DNA from: Luteithermobacter gelatinilyticus
GTDB taxonomy: Bacteria; Pseudomonadota; Alphaproteobacteria; Sphingomonadales; Emcibacteraceae
Reading direction: 5' to 3'
DNA length: 64,000 nucleotides
Assembly (NCBI RefSeq): GCF_005849285.1
Contig: NZ_CP040517.1
Coordinates: 1,060,501-1,124,500, forward strand
A model generated the notes under the pieces. The model did no database searches. It was given only the letters and a program-made list of their open reading frames with translations, and was not told where the DNA came from. Within the stretch, counting starts at the first letter, position 1. The number at the start of each line of letters is the position of its first letter. The translations under genes and the position numbers were made by a program. Shown piece after piece: positions 10,599-18,158 of the stretch.

Positions 10599-12941
10599 GT
10601 TGCAGCTGGACCTCAATTTCCGAAATGCTATGATCGTGATGATTAGTGGACTTGCGGAGATATGGTTGCAGCTGGACCTCAATTTCTGAAATGCTATGAT
10701 ATTATCCAGGGGGTCGAGTTTGATCGTCACGTTGCAGCTGGACCTCAATTTCTGAAATGCTATGATAGCCTCGAAATTCTTCAATGAGATGGTTGAGTTG
10801 CAGCTGGACCTCAATTTCTGAAATGCTATGATTGCGCGCCGACTGGGTCACCTTGGCGATGCGTTGCAGCTGGACCTCAATTTCTGAAATGCTATGATCT
10901 GAAGCCCGCAGGAACGGGCAGTTGTACTGTTGCAGCTGGACCTCAATTTCTGAAATGCTATGATTTCAGGCCGGGAATGCTTCTGCGTCTTTGCGTTGCA
11001 GCTGGACCTCAATTTCTGAAATGCTATGATGGACTCTGCCGGTTGGCGTGAACTCCTTGAGTTGCAGCTGGACCTCAATTTCTGAAATGCTATGATCTCG
11101 CACTTTGTTTCAATTCATAGTCTATCGTTGCAGCTGGACCTCAATTTCTGAAATGCTATGATCGTAAGCTGAAGTCGGGGTCGGGTCCCAGAGTTGCAGC
11201 TGGACCTCAATTTCTGAAATGCTATGATCCGCGCACAGGGTGTGGGTACAACCACTGCGTTGCAGCTGGACCTCAATTTCTGAAATGCTATGATTAGATA
11301 ACGCCTCAGAAATCGCCTGGGTAGGTTGCAGCTGGACCTCAATTTCTGAAATGCTATGATCCGCGCACAGGGTGTGGGTACAACCACTGCGTTGCAGCTG
11401 GACCTCAATTTCTGAAATGCTATGATCCGCGCACAGGGTGTGGGTACAACCACTGCGTTGCAGCTGGACCTCAATTTCTGAAATGCTATGATCTCGTAAT
11501 TGTCCTTCGTTCTGTTTAGTGGTTGCAGCTGGACCTCAATTTCTGAAATGCTATGATGTGTATGTATTTCAAAAGTGTCTTCATGCTGTTGCAGCTGGAC
11601 CTCAATTTCTGAAATGCTATGATATTTCCCACACCGAGGCCGGCAGCGGTTCTGTTGCAGCTGGACCTCAATTTCTGAAATGCTATGATCCAGGGTGTCA
11701 GGATCACCAGAACATGCGGGTTGCAGCTGGACCTCAATTTCTGAAATGCTATGATCAGATAAGCCAGCATTAACAAGGAATGCTCGTTGCAGCTGGACCT
11801 CAATTTCTGAAATGCTATGATCGCAAGGAAAACAGTTTGGGCGGAGGCCCTGTTGCAGCTGGACCTCAATTTCTGAAATGCTATGATGGGTTCGAATGTG
11901 TCTCACTGTACCATAGGTTGCAGCTGGACCTCAATTTCTGAAATGCTATGATGGGGTGGGGCTCACACACATGTTTATCTGGTTGCAGCTGGACCTCAAT
12001 TTCTGAAATGCTATGATCGGCGCAACCACAGAAACATTCACCACCGTGTTGCAGCTGGACCTCAATTTCTGAAATGCTATGATCAACCACAAGCCTTATG
12101 GTTTGAGGCTTGCGTTGCAGCTGGACCTCAATTTCTGAAATGCTATGATATTTTATGAACAGTCTCAGCAACCGCCACCGTTGCAGCTGGACCTCAATTT
12201 CTGAAATGCTATGATGTCTGTTGGGATCAGGTGCGGTCACGTTCCGTTGCAGCTGGACCTCAATTTCTGAAATGCTATGATGGAGGATAAGATGAATTAT
12301 TATGATAGCGCGTTGCAGCTGGACCTCAATTTCTGAAATGCTATGATATCCAGATCTACATTAAGAAGGATTTTATGGTTGCAGCTGGACCTCAATTTCT
12401 GAAATGCTATGATATAGCCCCCATGCCAGAACCGCTGCCCAGAGTTGCAGCTGGACCTCAATTTCTGAAATGCTATGATACTTCGGCCTATGGTGAGTCA
12501 AGCCTATGTGTTGCAGCTGGACCTCAATTTCTGAAATGCTATGATAATTGACCGTGTCGGGATCACGGAGCTGAGGTTGCAGCTGGACCTCAATTTCTGA
12601 AATGCTATGATTGCCGGCAATGTTGCGAGCATACAGGTTTCGTTGCAGCTGGACCTCAATTTCTGAAATGCTATGATGCGTTCCGTAATTGACCACACAC
12701 AAGCCGAGTTGCAGCTGGACCTCAATTTCTGAAATGCTATGATATTAAACGTAAACCATATTTTAATCCTGAAGTTGCAGCTGGACCTCAATTTCTGAAA
12801 TGCTATGATCAAACATATTGCCAAGCAGGTTGCCGCCCTGTTGCAGCTGGACCTCAATTTCTGAAATGCTATGATCCCAAGTTCCTTGATATGCTTTATA
12901 CCGCCGTTGCAGCTGGACCTCAATTTCTGAAATGCTATGAT
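10599..12941 (+). CRISPR. Type II-C CRISPR array, 36 repeats and 35 spacers
   Basis: The 36-bp repeat starts GTTGCAGCTGGACC and ends GAAATGCTATGAT. I counted 36 copies; only the first (10599-10634) differs, by one base. Spacers are 30 bp except three of 29 bp (11493-11521, 11888-11916, 11953-11981). Spacers at 11229-11258, 11361-11390 and 11427-11456 are identical. The plus strand is the crRNA strand because the tracrRNA anti-repeat at 18012-18036 is complementary to it. The repeat end TGCTATGAT resembles an extended -10 promoter box, as in Neisseria II-C repeats, so each unit may start its own crRNA. The divergent first repeat marks the older end; new spacers probably enter at the cas2 side. 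Confidence 0.98.
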
Positions 12942-13013: not shown

Positions 13014-13343
13014 TTAAAACAGGATAAGCTGATCGGGATTTTTAAAGGCCGGATTCTGTTTTTTGCCTGTAAAGCTGATGATGTTTTCATACTGTTTATC
13101 CGTAAATGTCAGAATATTCACTTTACCATATTCCGGCAGATTTTGCTGTATTTTGCGGCAGTAGGTTTCAACTTTTTCCTTACTGCTGCAAAACCTTAAA
13201 TATACGGAAAATTGGGACATCTCGAATCCCATATCCAAAAGAAAGTTCCGAAATTTACTGGCGGCTTTGCGCTGAGATATGGACATCACCGGCAGATCAA
13301 ACATGACAGCCATCCACATGATACGGTACCCACTCAACTCCAT
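13014..13343 (-). CDS. cas2: CRISPR-associated endonuclease Cas2
   Basis: The 109-residue protein has the ferredoxin-like Cas2 start YRIMWMAVMFDLPV with the conserved Asp near residue 16, followed by RKAASKFRNFLLDMGFEMSQFSVYLR. Cas2 is the structural partner of Cas1 in spacer integration. GAGGTGA precedes the ATG and the gap to cas1 is 4 nt, so the two are cotranscribed behind cas9. The order cas9-cas1-cas2 without csn2 or cas4 defines subtype II-C. Confidence 0.96.
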   Translation of the reverse strand: MELSGYRIMWMAVMFDLPVMSISQRKAASKFRNFLLDMGFEMSQFSVYLRFCSSKEKVETYCRKIQQNLPEYGKVNILTFTDKQYENIISFTGKKQNPAFKNPDQLILF

Positions 13344-13347
13344 TTTA

Positions 13348-14256
13348 TCACCTCACCCCTTGATCCAGCGGCAAGGGAGCGCCCGGCAGAACCAACTGGT
13401 CTTTACCGTCCGCCAGAGATTGGGCCAGAGAGGAGGCAAGGCGCTCGACACAAACGGCAAGCGGGCTGACGCCAAGATCTGTTGTCATGTCCTGGCGGCC
13501 AATCCTGGCGAGATAGGCCTTGGTATCTTTATCCAGAACGATCTGATCATTGATCATTAAACGCCGAACCCGCAGATCGACAAGCGGCCGGAACGGCTCC
13601 ATCAAATCATCCACCAGAGCCATCGCATTGTATTTATTGTGATGATGTAGGCCTATGGAAGGATGCAGCCCGGTGGCAGTTATCGCCCGGGCTGCCATGG
13701 CTCTCAGCACTGTATAGCCATAATTTAACAAGCTGTTGAGGCCCTCGGCGGACCGATCCCGTCTAAAATCCTTGCCGAAGAGCTGCAAAAAATACCGCCG
13801 GGCGGCCTGGGCTTCGATATTGTCCGGGTCGCCGGACCTGACGGATTTTTTGAGATTTCTGAGGCCGTCTGATTTAAGGTTCATGATGTCCAGGATATTG
13901 GCCTGATGATCAATCTTGCTTCGGACCAGGGTTTGCCATAACCGCTTTTGCAACGGTCTTCCGGCTTCGATTTGATGGCGAACGCGCCCACCCTGCTGAT
14001 GATGTCCCTCCATCGGCCAGAGCCAGGCTTTCGGCATATGATTGGGGCCACAGATGACCATAATGGCTTTGCGATCGGACAGCGCGGTGACCAGGTTATT
14101 GGTATAGGTCAGGCCATGGGCGTTGATAATCAGGGCAGAAATGTCATCCAGCGCCACCCGGCCCACCTCTTCACCATGACATTCCACCCGAAGAAAGCCG
14201 CGCAGGGCGCTCAGGTGACGATCGTCTTCGGCGATTTCAACAATATGTCCCACCAT
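13348..14256 (-). CDS. cas1: CRISPR-associated endonuclease Cas1
   Basis: Blocks typical of type II Cas1 are present: LNYGYTVLRAMAARAITATGL, then HPSIGLHHHNKYNAM and LVDDLMEPFRPLVD, holding the catalytic Glu/His/Asp set. Cas1 integrates new spacers with Cas2. ATG 14256 lies 1 nt after the cas9 stop codon and gives 302 residues, the usual length. A TTG at 14283 would overlap cas9 and add nine residues without family support. Confidence 0.96.
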   Translation of the reverse strand: MVGHIVEIAEDDRHLSALRGFLRVECHGEEVGRVALDDISALIINAHGLTYTNNLVTALSDRKAIMVICGPNHMPKAWLWPMEGHHQQGGRVRHQIEAGRPLQKRLWQTLVRSKIDHQANILDIMNLKSDGLRNLKKSVRSGDPDNIEAQAARRYFLQLFGKDFRRDRSAEGLNSLLNYGYTVLRAMAARAITATGLHPSIGLHHHNKYNAMALVDDLMEPFRPLVDLRVRRLMINDQIVLDKDTKAYLARIGRQDMTTDLGVSPLAVCVERLASSLAQSLADGKDQLVLPGAPLPLDQGVR

Positions 14257-14257
14257 G

Positions 14258-17200
14258 TCACGCGCCGTCTTTCGGATATCCAACCAGCCCTAGCTCATCG
14301 AGCCAGGCCTTGCGAATCCCATATTTTTGCAACGTTTCAGCCCCCATTTCTGTCATTTTAAAGGGGTCATCTTTATTGCGATGCCGTTGATCCACATTGC
14401 TTTCGTGATGTTCGGCCATGATCAGGGCACCTTTTGAGAACTTAATCACCTGCATCACTTTCCAGCCATTTTTCTCCTTTAACAGAACCATATCTTTTTT
14501 AAACAGACGCATGATTTTCCGGGCGGTGGGATGCTGCCGTTTCAGGGGGGAAATAAAATTGCCCTGGTTGGCGTCAAAAGTGGAAATAACCTCAGCTTTC
14601 CATTTGCCGTTGGGCAATTCATAGATGTCGTAACAGGCATTGGAATCGCCCTTATAACCTTTATAGGGAATGCCGTTTTTGTTCTTGATGGGTATGACGC
14701 GAAGTTTTTCCACAACCCGGACCCTGCGACAGCCGGTGTCTTTTGAATACCTGGCCAGCTCTGCGGAAAATTCCTTGTCCGAAAGCCCGTAAAGGCGGGT
14801 GAGGAGTTGTTCACGGATGACACGATCGCGGATGGTTTCAATTTTTCCTAACGACTTAAGCGACATTAGCGGTACCCGATGCACCACTTCCCGCACGCCT
14901 TTGGGATCAGGATCGCTGGCCAGGCCGTAAGCCGTATCATTATGCAGCGCCCCCTTCACATTGTGATCGGGGCGGTGGGAGACGATGACTTGGTCAAGCG
15001 CCGCCTTCAGGTCATCCCGAAAGGTGGGCCAGGGAACTGGCATGTCCACTACCAGTCGTTCAAGATCCTCTATTTCCGCCTGTCCGGCCTGGCGAGAGAT
15101 GCTGTTCAGCATGCTGCGGTCCGTCACCCCGACTACGGCAGCGTCTATGGCGTGATGGCGATGATCGGTGCGGTCCTTCAAATTATGATCGCTCAGCAGA
15201 TCGTTCAACCCCCACTTGCCGCGGAGCAGGGCGGTCAAGCGACCCGGGATCACCCAGACCTGATCACAGACATGGGTTAGATATTCCCGGGTCAGGCGGG
15301 ACAGGTATTGTGTATCGGTCAAGGCCCGATCCAGAAAATCGCGCTCTTCATTCTCAAACCGCTCCATGGCATCAGGCCCGAAGCGCCAGCGTTTGTTATG
15401 GGGCAGGGCGGCTGCCCGCTCCAGAATGTCCGGCCAGTCCGGGCGATGCCCAAAGGCCTCATGGGGACTTTGATTGCCCTTGTTCCGGTTGGCGTCTCTG
15501 AAGGACAGAGTTTTATTCGCGATGCTGTTATCCAGGGTGCGGGAGAAGGGCAGGATATGTTCAATTTCCACCTGATCCGAGAACAGATTTTTTATGTTGA
15601 TCCTTTTACCGCTGTAGGTGCAGCAGCGGTTAAAAGGGTCGTTCCGGTTCAGTTCTTCCCATAGTTTCAAGCGCAGGCGGTTTTCGCCGGTGTTGGGGAA
15701 GCCCTCCTTTGACAACAGGTCTTCATATCGTTCATTGCGCTCCCGGTTGAACTTCTGTTCTTTATTAATTTTATCTTTCTGTTTTTTATTGAGTTTTAAT
15801 TCCCGCGCCAGTTCCACAATAATTTGCCGGGGTGGGCCGTATTTCTTGCAAATTTTGTTGACCAGATGGCGCAACTGATTCAGGCCGATATGGACGGTCG
15901 GATTGGGCACTCGGCCATACCGGACCTCATCCGGATCATCCGGGTTGCCGCTGCCGAACCCAACGTGGCGTTCCATCAGTTTGCCGTAATACTCCAGTTC
16001 AGGTTTGATTTCATGGGCGTCAAAGGAAGAATGGTCATATCCCAAGGAACGGGCGGCTTGGGCATAGGTAATGACTTGTTTTTTCATCACCTCGACAATA
16101 TCCCGCATGGCGGTGGGGCCGAGGCTGGCGTGACCGTCCGGCAGGAATGCCCGGCTTGTCTTTTCCGCCTGTTCCGCGTCAAGGCCGCAGTCCCGAACCA
16201 GCCAGTCGATCATGACGGCTTCATTCTGTTCCGTCAGCAGCTTGTCGACAATCTCGCTTTGGCGATCAAAGGGGAGGGCGGCCCACTTGTCGCCAAAACG
16301 GTCTTTTTTACGCAATATCTCGGCGGTTTCATCGCCTTTCAGGTATTTACGGTTGTCTTGTTCCAGATTAAATTCACAGTCCGGCGTCAGCTTCAACGCT
16401 TTTCTGATCTGGGTGAAGGTCATTTTGGCTTTTGTCTTCAACGCATAAGCCAAAAGATCCCGTTGCTCCAAGGTCAGTTCATGCTGCGTCGGGTCATGGC
16501 CGACGGTATATTTCAAATTGTTCAGTTCCTGATAGATTCGGAATTCTTGCGCCAGCGGCATGGCCCGGGCGACTCTTTCCTCCCAACTGTTGAAGACGCA
16601 GCGGCCGGGCTGGACGGGCTTTAGATAGCGCTGGAAAAAGATCACGTCCTTGAGTCGGGCGTAATTTTCATCCGTCAGCAGGGCGGGATGATATTTTTTC
16701 TGCGCCCGCCATAAGGCGTCGAACTCGGCCTCATACATGGCGCGGGACGGGTAAAAGTCATAGAGTTCCTTTTCCTTGCCGTCGATGACATGCGTGGTCC
16801 GGCGCACCCGCACGGATTGCTGCTTTTTATGGCGCTGATAGAGCCATTCGCCCAGGGTGCGCGGCTTTTCCTCGGGGGAGGGGGCATCCGGATCACCAAG
16901 CTGTTGTTTAAGGCTTTTTACGCCCTGATTGATGAGGCCGCTGTCACTGTCCTTGCTGTCTGTTTTGCGATTGCTTTGAAAGCCGCGCCGCTGGTTGAGA
17001 TGAAACAGCGCCCGGCCCAGATGATGGGGATGAAGCTCTTCGTCCAGCCCCCGGGCGCGCAAGGCGTAAGGGTCGAGCTGTTCTAGGTCGCGGCGGCTAC
17101 GCCAGTCCGGGGGAAACAGCCCGGCTTCGGTCAGGGCCCGCATGACTTTCTGGCGGCGGCGCAGATATCGGTCCCGGCGGCGTCGGGCTGACCGGGCGAG

Positions 17201-17377
17201 GCGGCGGTCCACGGCCAGGGAGGCTTTGCCCTTGTTGGGTCGGCGGCCGTCGGAAAAGATCCGCACCCCCGCCCGGAGAATGCCGACGGGTCTGTTATTC
17301 TCATTCAGTTCATAAAGACACCAACCGATAGAGGTGGTGCCGATGTCCAATCCCAGGCGCGTTGGTTTATATGTCAT
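14258..17377 (-). CDS. cas9: CRISPR-associated endonuclease Cas9, subtype II-C
   Basis: About 1039 residues, the compact II-C size. Domains in order: RuvC-I LGLDIGTTSIGW with Asp near residue 11; arginine-rich bridge helix RRLARSARRRRDRYLRRR; alpha-helical recognition lobe; RuvC-II IIVELAREL near 519; HNH EIEHILPFSRTLDNS near 607 with the catalytic His; RuvC-III DHRHHAIDAAVVG near 740; C-terminal PAM-interacting region. All nuclease residues appear intact. I chose ATG 17377 because GGGGG lies 8 nt upstream; ATG 17383 is too close to it and TTG 17392 includes it. First gene of cas9-cas1-cas2. Its upstream DNA carries a 12-bp element matching a guide-like sequence beside the tracrRNA. Confidence 0.97.
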   Translation of the reverse strand: MTYKPTRLGLDIGTTSIGWCLYELNENNRPVGILRAGVRIFSDGRRPNKGKASLAVDRRLARSARRRRDRYLRRRQKVMRALTEAGLFPPDWRSRRDLEQLDPYALRARGLDEELHPHHLGRALFHLNQRRGFQSNRKTDSKDSDSGLINQGVKSLKQQLGDPDAPSPEEKPRTLGEWLYQRHKKQQSVRVRRTTHVIDGKEKELYDFYPSRAMYEAEFDALWRAQKKYHPALLTDENYARLKDVIFFQRYLKPVQPGRCVFNSWEERVARAMPLAQEFRIYQELNNLKYTVGHDPTQHELTLEQRDLLAYALKTKAKMTFTQIRKALKLTPDCEFNLEQDNRKYLKGDETAEILRKKDRFGDKWAALPFDRQSEIVDKLLTEQNEAVMIDWLVRDCGLDAEQAEKTSRAFLPDGHASLGPTAMRDIVEVMKKQVITYAQAARSLGYDHSSFDAHEIKPELEYYGKLMERHVGFGSGNPDDPDEVRYGRVPNPTVHIGLNQLRHLVNKICKKYGPPRQIIVELARELKLNKKQKDKINKEQKFNRERNERYEDLLSKEGFPNTGENRLRLKLWEELNRNDPFNRCCTYSGKRINIKNLFSDQVEIEHILPFSRTLDNSIANKTLSFRDANRNKGNQSPHEAFGHRPDWPDILERAAALPHNKRWRFGPDAMERFENEERDFLDRALTDTQYLSRLTREYLTHVCDQVWVIPGRLTALLRGKWGLNDLLSDHNLKDRTDHRHHAIDAAVVGVTDRSMLNSISRQAGQAEIEDLERLVVDMPVPWPTFRDDLKAALDQVIVSHRPDHNVKGALHNDTAYGLASDPDPKGVREVVHRVPLMSLKSLGKIETIRDRVIREQLLTRLYGLSDKEFSAELARYSKDTGCRRVRVVEKLRVIPIKNKNGIPYKGYKGDSNACYDIYELPNGKWKAEVISTFDANQGNFISPLKRQHPTARKIMRLFKKDMVLLKEKNGWKVMQVIKFSKGALIMAEHHESNVDQRHRNKDDPFKMTEMGAETLQKYGIRKAWLDELGLVGYPKDGA

Positions 17378-17742
17378 TGTCATATCCCCCAAATTATTAT
17401 CGATGTGCCAAATTTATATACAAAGAGTACATAATTTCAGCTTATGGCTGCAAGAGTAAAAAAAGAATGGCGAAATGTTCAAGAAGCCACCACCAAGCCG
17501 GACTTGTAAAAAGGAGCTGGATCTGGGCGAATATGTTTGAGGGGGCATTGGAGCAGTTGTCATTGGCGCCTTGGCGAGGCCGGCGTTGGGTCAGGGGGAC
17601 AGTTTTCTGAAATTTCTCACCTCCCGATCCAATTGTATGGATGTCAAGCTCAACAGATAGATGAAAAGAAAAGGCTTTCATGTCATATCGCCTTCATTAG
17701 GAGAGGCAAAAAAGCACTCCCCATATATATCTCCCCATATAT

Positions 17743-17748: not shown

Positions 17749-17796
17749 CGCCAAACATATCATGCTATAATATGAGTGTCCATAAAATTACCTTCT

Positions 17797-17808
17797 TAAA
17801 CAACACAG
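17797..17808 (-). promoter_or_regulatory. 12-bp target-like element upstream of cas9
   Basis: On the minus strand this reads CTGTGTTGTTTA, identical to plus-strand 17874-17885, the 12 nt that abut the degenerate repeat beside the tracrRNA. The minus-strand bases that would be the PAM side are AGAAGGTA. The match ends exactly at 12 nt on its 5' side. The element lies about 50 bp upstream of the candidate cas -10 box and 2 bp upstream of the -35 of the candidate long tracrRNA promoter. Confidence 0.5.
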
Positions 17809-17810
17809 CC

Positions 17811-17839
17811 TTGACTAAAAATTTTTTACGCAGTACTCT
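17811..17839 (+). promoter_or_regulatory. Candidate promoter of a long tracrRNA form
   Basis: TTGACT (17811-17816), 17 nt, then TACTCT (17834-17839). The -35 is strong and the -10 is weak. Initiation near 17846 would produce an RNA running through the guide-like 12-mer, the degenerate repeat and the tracrRNA. Confidence 0.35.
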
Positions 17840-17885
17840 TCTAACACAAACAATGTTGACATTTTGAAGGTGTCTGTGTTGTTTA

Positions 17886-17921
17886 GTTGCAGCCGGGCCT
17901 CAATTTCTGAAGTCTGCGAAT
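17886..17921 (+). repeat. Solitary degenerate CRISPR repeat beside tracrRNA
   Basis: It is in array orientation and matches the repeat at 25 of its first 27 positions, but its 3' end is replaced (TCTGCGAAT instead of TGCTATGAT), so the embedded -10 box is lost. It is 5 kb from the array and no second repeat follows. Loss of the promoter end with preservation of the pairing end suggests selection for pairing. Confidence 0.8.
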
Positions 17922-17966
17922 TGGGTCGGGGCCACAGAGCCAAACCCGACATATGGCGTTTCTGCC

Positions 17967-17996
17967 TTGACAATATATTGGCGAGTTGGTTACAGT
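17967..17996 (+). promoter_or_regulatory. tracrRNA promoter
   Basis: Consensus TTGACA (17967-17972), 18 nt, TACAGT (17991-17996). Initiation near 18003 would place the anti-repeat at the RNA 5' end, as expected for short tracrRNA. Confidence 0.75.
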
Positions 17997-18002
17997 TCTC
18001 TC

Positions 18003-18105
18003 ACTTAATAGTATTTCAGAAATTGAGGTCTGGATGTTAACAAGCTTCTGTTTGTAACAGAAAGACAGCACAAGATTAAAAGGCGGGCTCCGGCCTGCCT
18101 TTTTT
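18003..18105 (+). ncRNA. tracrRNA
   Basis: The anti-repeat (18012-18036) carries TTCAGAAATTGAGG, complementary to the array repeat, followed by a bulged region, an AAGCTTCTGTTTGTAACAG segment able to form a small hairpin, and a strong terminator. Length is about 100 nt. It is transcribed divergently from cas9 and pairs with the plus-strand array transcript so that Cas9 and RNase III can process crRNA, as known for type II systems. Confidence 0.88.
18081..18105 (+). terminator. Bidirectional terminator shared by tracrRNA and tRNA-Arg
   Basis: The stem GGCGGGC / GCCTGCC (18082-18088 with 18093-18099, one G-T pair) with a TCCG loop is followed by six T on the plus strand. On the minus strand the same stem is followed by TTTT, so it can also stop the convergent tRNA transcript. 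Confidence 0.85.
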
Positions 18106-18158
18106 ATGGCCTTTTATATCAGAATGACATACCAGCCAGATCAAATTTACGGGGAGAT

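Follow-up and report, generated by a model that had tools for sequence, protein, structure and literature searches.

The tracrRNA locus of a type II-C CRISPR-Cas system (array, cas2, cas1 and cas9), located in a window of 64 kb (the whole stretch of DNA that was analysed, G000:C1:1060501-1124500) of a 3.15 Mb genome, very likely encodes a natural single-guide RNA of the tracr-L type, which would direct Cas9 to repress cas9-cas1-cas2. The original prediction of such a guide in subtype II-C is supported comparatively: guides of related loci differ from one another, and each tends to match the leader of its own cas9 rather than those of other loci. To the extent that function can be read from sequence, we regard this relationship between guide and target in the relatives as the decisive evidence.

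According to the mechanism that we propose, two RNAs would be produced from the tracrRNA locus. The short form, starting from the promoter at 17967, would pair with crRNAs and serve immunity; the long form, once in Cas9, would bind the 12 bp that it matches (17797-17808), a short way upstream of the candidate cas9 promoter. Bound Cas9 would block transcription of cas9-cas1-cas2 without cutting, which we propose because the match is just 12 nt long (a short guide match leads other Cas9s to bind without cleavage), and this would amount to a negative feedback on the level of Cas9.

Anatomy of the locus in the window

The locus contains cas9, cas1 and cas2 and no fourth cas gene, as expected of subtype II-C (Table 1). 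There are no gene-like ORFs of 80 aa or more in the interval between cas2 and the array, and a Pfam scan of the five ORFs that neighbour the locus on the outside identified none as a cas gene. HNH and RuvC domains are recognised by Pfam in the window Cas9, for which we infer a start codon at 17377 (the ORF as listed starts at 17392), and whose catalytic residues we take to be intact from a reading by eye against the known motifs. One 30-nt spacer is present three times in the array, at 11229, 11361 and 11427. The genome also encodes a second, distant Cas9 (L133, G000:C1:3036693-3039179, 33% identity), which has its own array of 24 repeats with the repeat GTCATAGCTTCCCTTTTCACACCGATAGGCTATGAT.

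Table 1. Positions of the features of the II-C locus and of the region upstream of cas9, in window coordinates.
Feature	Position	Strand	Details and basis
CRISPR array	10599..12941	+	36 repeats of 36 nt, spacers 29-30 nt, repeat GTTGCAGCTGGACCTCAATTTCTGAAATGCTATGAT
cas2	13014..13343	-	NCBIfam TIGR01573, E 2e-18
cas1 (type II)	13348..14283	-	NCBIfam TIGR03639, E 4e-71
cas9, 1039 aa	14258..17377	-	NCBIfam TIGR01865, E 2e-195; Pfam HNH_4 + RuvC_III
Candidate cas9 promoter TGGACA-N17-TATGTT, TG before -10	17754..17782	-	consensus scan, weak
Putative PAM-side flank of self-target, AGAAGGTA	17789..17796	-	sequence
Self-target, 12-nt putative protospacer CTGTGTTGTTTA	17797..17808	-	exact guide match upstream of cas9
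Candidate long-form promoter TTGACT-N17-TACTCT	17811..17839	+	by eye
12-nt guide segment CTGTGTTGTTTA	17874..17885	+	sequence; abuts 5' side of degenerate repeat
Degenerate CRISPR repeat	17886..17921	+	same strand as tracrRNA, upstream; 26 predicted pairs with anti-repeat region
Predicted natural single-guide RNA (tracr-L)	17874..18105	+	fold; 5' end provisional
Candidate short-form tracrRNA promoter TTGACA-N18-TACAGT	17967..17996	+	consensus scan
tracrRNA anti-repeat	about 18008..18036	+	divergent from cas9, upstream of cas9
tracrRNA nexus (GTTAACAAG, from ~18035), hairpin, terminator-like stem with T-run	18037..18105	+	

The anatomy described in the original prediction is borne out by direct reading of the sequence. 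A degenerate repeat in array orientation precedes the anti-repeat, with which it shares a perfect 14-bp stem (CCTCAATTTCTGAA / TTCAGAAATTGAGG); its identity to the array repeat is 24/26 over the 5' part and 3/10 over the 3' part (27/36 overall), in keeping with the claim that its 3' end was lost and its pairing end kept. The flank on the PAM side of the target reads as had been given, and the exact opposite-strand copy of the guide is where it was said to be. With up to one mismatch, the only matches to the 12 nt in the 64 kb window are the guide and the target (two, with 0.19 expected); the exact matches in the whole genome are the same two and no others, and a reversed control pattern has one genome match. 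The leader between cas9 and the anti-repeat is about 630 nt long. The chance of an exact 12-nt match abutting the repeat, for a 690-nt leader and both strands, is ~8e-5 (2 x 690 / 4^12). The predicted fold of 17874-18107 (-94.6 kcal/mol, z -7.6; 0/200 shuffles equally stable) consists of a long repeat:anti-repeat stem followed by the tracrRNA hairpins. The layout of a tracr-L, that is, a same-strand repeat-like segment 5' of the anti-repeat, predicted to fold back on it, and a short guide that abuts this repeat and matches the region upstream of the cas operon, is therefore present in the window.

The same anatomy bears on a reading with two RNAs, in which a repeat-bearing scaRNA would pair with the tracrRNA in trans and regulate other genes. 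A degenerate repeat does lie beside the tracrRNA, as in Francisella, scaRNA:tracrRNA pairs are predicted in some II-C systems (in the accessible part of PMC6199352), and the degenerate repeats found on the other strand at two related loci (L076, L077) suggest that trans forms may exist. In the window, however, repeat and tracrRNA share strand and order and give a long self-pairing fold, and the guide has a single further exact copy in the genome, upstream of cas9; read from the sequence, what is found is not a separate RNA with a non-cas target but a segment apparently folded on the tracrRNA, with a target upstream of cas9. A terminator scan gave nothing between repeat and tracrRNA, which says little, since the scan of the region also failed to report the terminator stem of the tracrRNA itself (18037-18105). 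On balance we consider the two-RNA reading unlikely.

As to promoters, the one claimed for the short form was recovered by the consensus scan. The one claimed for the long form can be read by eye, but its -10 box matches at 3/6 positions and the scan is silent there. The -35 box of the candidate cas9 promoter starts 7 bases past the 8-nt flank of the target. Since 3 promoter-like sites were found by the scan in this region versus 1.9 expected from shuffles, these promoter predictions are weak evidence. A TTGAC box before the anti-repeat can also be read by eye in several relatives.

Guides and leaders of related loci

Relatives of cas9 were gathered from genomes, contigs and plasmids, with matches taken selectively, and 96 II-C-like loci were read, including the window and the second Cas9 of its genome; a few genome matches (for example, G067, G641, G483, G595, G740, G438, G847) and 40 of 45 plasmid records, mostly near-copies from Pseudosulfitobacter, were left out. 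The nearest Cas9 found is 53-54% identical to that of the window, and thus the window's own pair is not traceable in near relatives. A tracrRNA upstream of cas9 and on the opposite strand was recognised in 85 of the 96 loci (two of them via hand-given motifs). In 59 of these 85, including the Novosphingobium plasmids of strains ES2-1 and THN1 (L159, L160), the anti-repeat is at most 169 nt from cas9, which leaves little or zero space for a long form; in the other 26 the distance is 180 nt or more, and the leader is long.

For every long-leader locus the best repeat-like segment was picked by sequence alone, and the 12-mer abutting it was compared with its own leader and, as a control, with the 25 other leaders (650 pairs for the 26 guides). 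In 18 of the 26 loci, window included, at least 10/12 positions of the 12-mer agree with a site in its own leader, versus 17/650 swaps, kinship being otherwise uncorrected (Fisher p 5e-20). With an uninterrupted run of at least 9 from the repeat side required, the counts are 10/26 and 1/650 (Fisher p 1e-14). All 18 matching loci are within the window's class, taken to be Alphaproteobacteria from a named Novosphingobium plasmid in the best-sampled clade. The window target, ~420 bp from cas9, is the farthest among them (that of L134 is next, at ~350). The original prediction had looked to conservation of the 12-nt pair in relatives: the letters of the pair are not conserved, whereas the relationship between guide and target is kept. 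As an example, the guides are TAAATGGAGTAG in L092, TCCTCCATTTTA in L158, AAGAGTGGTAG in L150, ATTGGCTCTTA in L089 and AGCACTACGT in L155; they vary between loci, and each still matches its own target.

Similar proportions were obtained with other versions of the comparison. In a first version, restricted to the 9 loci with the best repeats, 9/9 guides match their own leader versus 2/162 swaps, and runs of at least 9 occur for 6/9 guides versus 40/2720 other positions in the same leaders. In a scan of 72 leaders, such runs were found at 10/88 repeat-start motifs versus 164/11364 other sites; 8 of these 10 coincide with predicted guides, and the other two (L082, L158) do not. Fifteen loci were fetched after the pattern had been seen: six of them have long leaders, of which 5/6 match (all six are counted within the 26). 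Of 10 further loci sampled throughout the phylum, 5 have a recognisable tracrRNA and a single one (L198) has a long leader; this locus stands outside the 26 and carries an 11-nt match with flank GGGAATTT.

The automatic rule fails in 8 of the 26 long leaders (L076, L081, L082, L085, L107, L122, L149, L194); of these, L082 reaches 10/12 solely with its repeat placed by eye. L091 passes at 10/12, yet its long match sits 2 nt off the repeat and the clade motif described below is absent. Two loci with shorter leaders, L087 and L124, have a clear repeat start and yet no guide match.

The pairs also bear on the possibility that the 12-bp inverted pair of the window is a protein operator or a cis-acting hairpin, its place beside the repeat being incidental. 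An inverted repeat in a regulatory region is what such a reading would expect. Against it, the 12-mers adjacent to repeats match their own leaders far above swaps, guides are unrelated between loci, and a common motif flanks targets within one clade; we consider this reading highly improbable. In the 18 matching loci the target is inverted with respect to the guide in 12 and is a direct copy of it in 6. Direct copies can be accounted for by an RNA guide but not by a simple hairpin or palindromic operator, which was rejected as a general explanation of the pairs. A merely conserved sequence was rejected as well, as guides differ and targets lie at various distances and on both strands.

Minimum-energy folds were calculated for 19 predicted long forms (the 18 matching loci and L082). 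At least 20 repeat:anti-repeat pairs are present in six of them (26 in the window and in L150, 25 in L090, 24 in L089 and in L155, 23 in L092), 6-18 pairs in seven, and none in the remaining six, in which other hairpins win. In these models a single-guide fold is clear for some loci, with the window among the best, and is unproven elsewhere.

Two of the leaders deserve separate mention. In that of L082, the guide region resembles by eye a target just upstream of cas9 across ~22 nt, interrupted by a single gap and a single mismatch; this likeness reads as if the guide were a copy of the target. In L091, an 18-nt identity between guide and target stands, by eye, 2 nt from the repeat; in L092, a near sister, the 12-nt pair is clean.

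Flanks of the targets and spacer matches

The motif NGGNNT follows the target in 9 of the 13 matching loci of one clade versus 6/426 control sites, i.e. other 12-mers matching at 10 or more positions in the same leaders, and versus a background of 203/14020, the motif having been chosen from the first loci and the clade after some flanks had been seen. This clade, labelled Sphingomonad-type after a named Novosphingobium plasmid within what is the best-sampled clade, omits 7 of the 26 long-leader loci (the window, L158, L134, L126, L114, L122, L076); L134, L126 and L149 are absent from the tree used for placement, and loci fetched late were placed by genus. Among loci fetched after the choice of the motif, it is present in 3/5 matching ones and then in 1/1 (L198), and over all matching loci in 9/18. 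Five of the nine flanks are GGGGATTG (L089, L150, L193) or AGGCATTG (L078, L155), next to guides that differ; the exceptions within the clade are GGAGTTTT in L092, GAGATTGA in L190, GGGGACTG in L192 and TACAGATT in L091. A shared NGGNNT beside unrelated targets is what a PAM of this clade would look like. Elsewhere the flanks are AGAAGGTA in the window, GAAAACAT in L158, GCGAACGT in L134, AGTTTTAC in L126 and GGAAACTT in L114; such differences are as expected if the Cas9s of these five loci differ.

By eye, the ATTG of the flank overlaps a TTGAC-, TTGAT- or TTGTT-like box at the targets of L078, L150 and L155, and this box could be the -35 element of the cas9 promoter.

The window flank falls outside the NGGNNT motif, and this is one of three points that would agree with a vestige, i.e. 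what is left of a one-time array end or of an earlier tracr-L, its expression lost; the others are the decayed 3' part of the repeat and the weak long-form promoter. An unused pair should drift, however, while the 12-nt identity of guide and target and the 26-pair stem are intact in the window, and the 3' part of the repeat is also missing in matching loci such as L089 and L126. A vestige thus appears very unlikely.

Matches to the spacers were also searched. The whole window array gave no match against phages at E up to 1, two Novosphingobium records against plasmids, with the match attributed to the repeats, and its own locus alone against 32 genomes of the family, its own included. Seven of the 35 window spacers were run as 18-20-nt exact patterns in IMG/VR: three found none and four led to 7 contigs. 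The two best of these match at 25/30, L165 with a 22-nt PAM-proximal run and flank CAATCGCC, L166 with flank ACAGTTAA, and the remaining five match at 20-24/30; the flanks of these matches disagree among themselves and with that of the window target, and no protospacer suited to deducing the PAM of the window Cas9 emerged. The arrays of L155 and L078 gave CRISPR records or weak matches against plasmids. With the spacers of L089, at least 8 matches were found in 298 genomes (two candidates scored per genome); seven of them (22-26/30) look like chance, and the eighth (L177; 26/29, PAM-proximal end intact), whose flank GGCGACGA is outside NGGNNT, may be a real protospacer match.

Relation to known guide RNAs and evolution

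These results can be compared with what is described for other systems in the accessible parts of the sources cited here. The tracr-L of type II-A is a long form of the tracrRNA in which a short stretch can pair with the cas promoter next to a PAM; it represses by binding (PMC11417352). In Streptococcus pyogenes the complementarity is 11 nt and cleavage is apparently prevented (PMC8616872); a review of tracr-L and scaRNA gives it as 9 bp (PMC8730458). The element described here resembles S. pyogenes tracr-L in having a short guide that matches the region upstream of the cas operon within a predicted long form of the tracrRNA. Unlike that RNA, it belongs to a II-C system (cas9-cas1-cas2) in which the tracrRNA and cas9 point away from each other; the target flank seen in relatives resembles NGGNNT, and even close relatives carry different guides. 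A 2021 review states, in its accessible part, that tracr-L is absent from other subtypes (PMC8616872); with cas9, cas1 and cas2 as its cas genes the present locus is not II-A, and would be a new setting for a tracr-L-like element.

The scaRNA of Francisella novicida (II-B) is similar in that a diverged repeat pairs with the tracrRNA and a short complementarity serves repression (PMC8730458), but it is a separate RNA acting on other genes, whereas here a single RNA is predicted, with its target upstream of cas9. In Neisseria meningitidis, likewise II-C, a CRISPR-associated small RNA also termed scaRNA is reported to be a post-transcriptional regulator of the efeUOB mRNA, and no autorepression of cas9 by it is described in the accessible part of PMC13431127. 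In Listeria monocytogenes a single transcription unit resembling crRNA:tracrRNA, sgRNA-like, is predicted in a II-A system; the accessible part of PMC6199352 proposes no cas-promoter target for this unit or for the II-C scaRNA units. The CreR RNAs of types I-B, I-E and V-A have partial complementarity to the cas promoter and cause autorepression (PMC13131331). The likeness is that of an RNA partly matching the cas promoter, and the difference is in the type of effector. The guide architecture of CreR also differs from that of the predicted tracr-L. In the open literature searched, which leaves most subscription papers outside, so that an earlier report is possible, we found no II-C tracr-L or natural guide targeting cas9, and the accessible parts of PMC12080349, PMC13187072 and PMC10013973 contain no II-C tracr-L or the like.

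The distribution of the trait was examined on a quickly made Cas9 tree with 69 rows, which omits the fifteen loci fetched late. With 11 of these rows marked as tracr-L, the tree requires 10 changes, about as many as with shuffled labels (10.3), and hence the trait is scattered, having been gained or lost many times. Even between the sister loci L091 and L092, close as they are, the guides are unrelated. Taken together, we think it probable that self-repression of Cas9 through an RNA guide is widespread among the II-C systems of Alphaproteobacteria and has been renewed repeatedly. New pairs of 9-12 nt would emerge time and again next to the tracrRNA, perhaps when part of the cas9 leader is copied to the side of an ectopic repeat; the turnover of pairs would be faster than that of Cas9, and in some loci the PAM would extend over the -35 box of the cas9 promoter.

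That a tracr-L signature recurs at many II-C loci whose guides differ points to self-repression as a general means of meeting the cost of Cas9. Such loci would also supply many natural short-guide silencing pairs and natural single-guide scaffolds for compact II-C Cas9 proteins, and leaders could be used to predict the PAMs of their own, uncharacterised Cas9s.

Finally, degenerate repeats were seen on the strand of cas9, i.e. opposite to the tracrRNA, in two of the relatives. In L076 the repeat is 124 nt upstream of cas9 and the best match of its flank is 9/12. In L077 it is 227 nt upstream of cas9, and its 12-nt 5' flank has a match of 11/12, read without a control, ~400 nt upstream of cas9, with flank GGGAACTT; this repeat is possibly part of a scaRNA-like trans guide.
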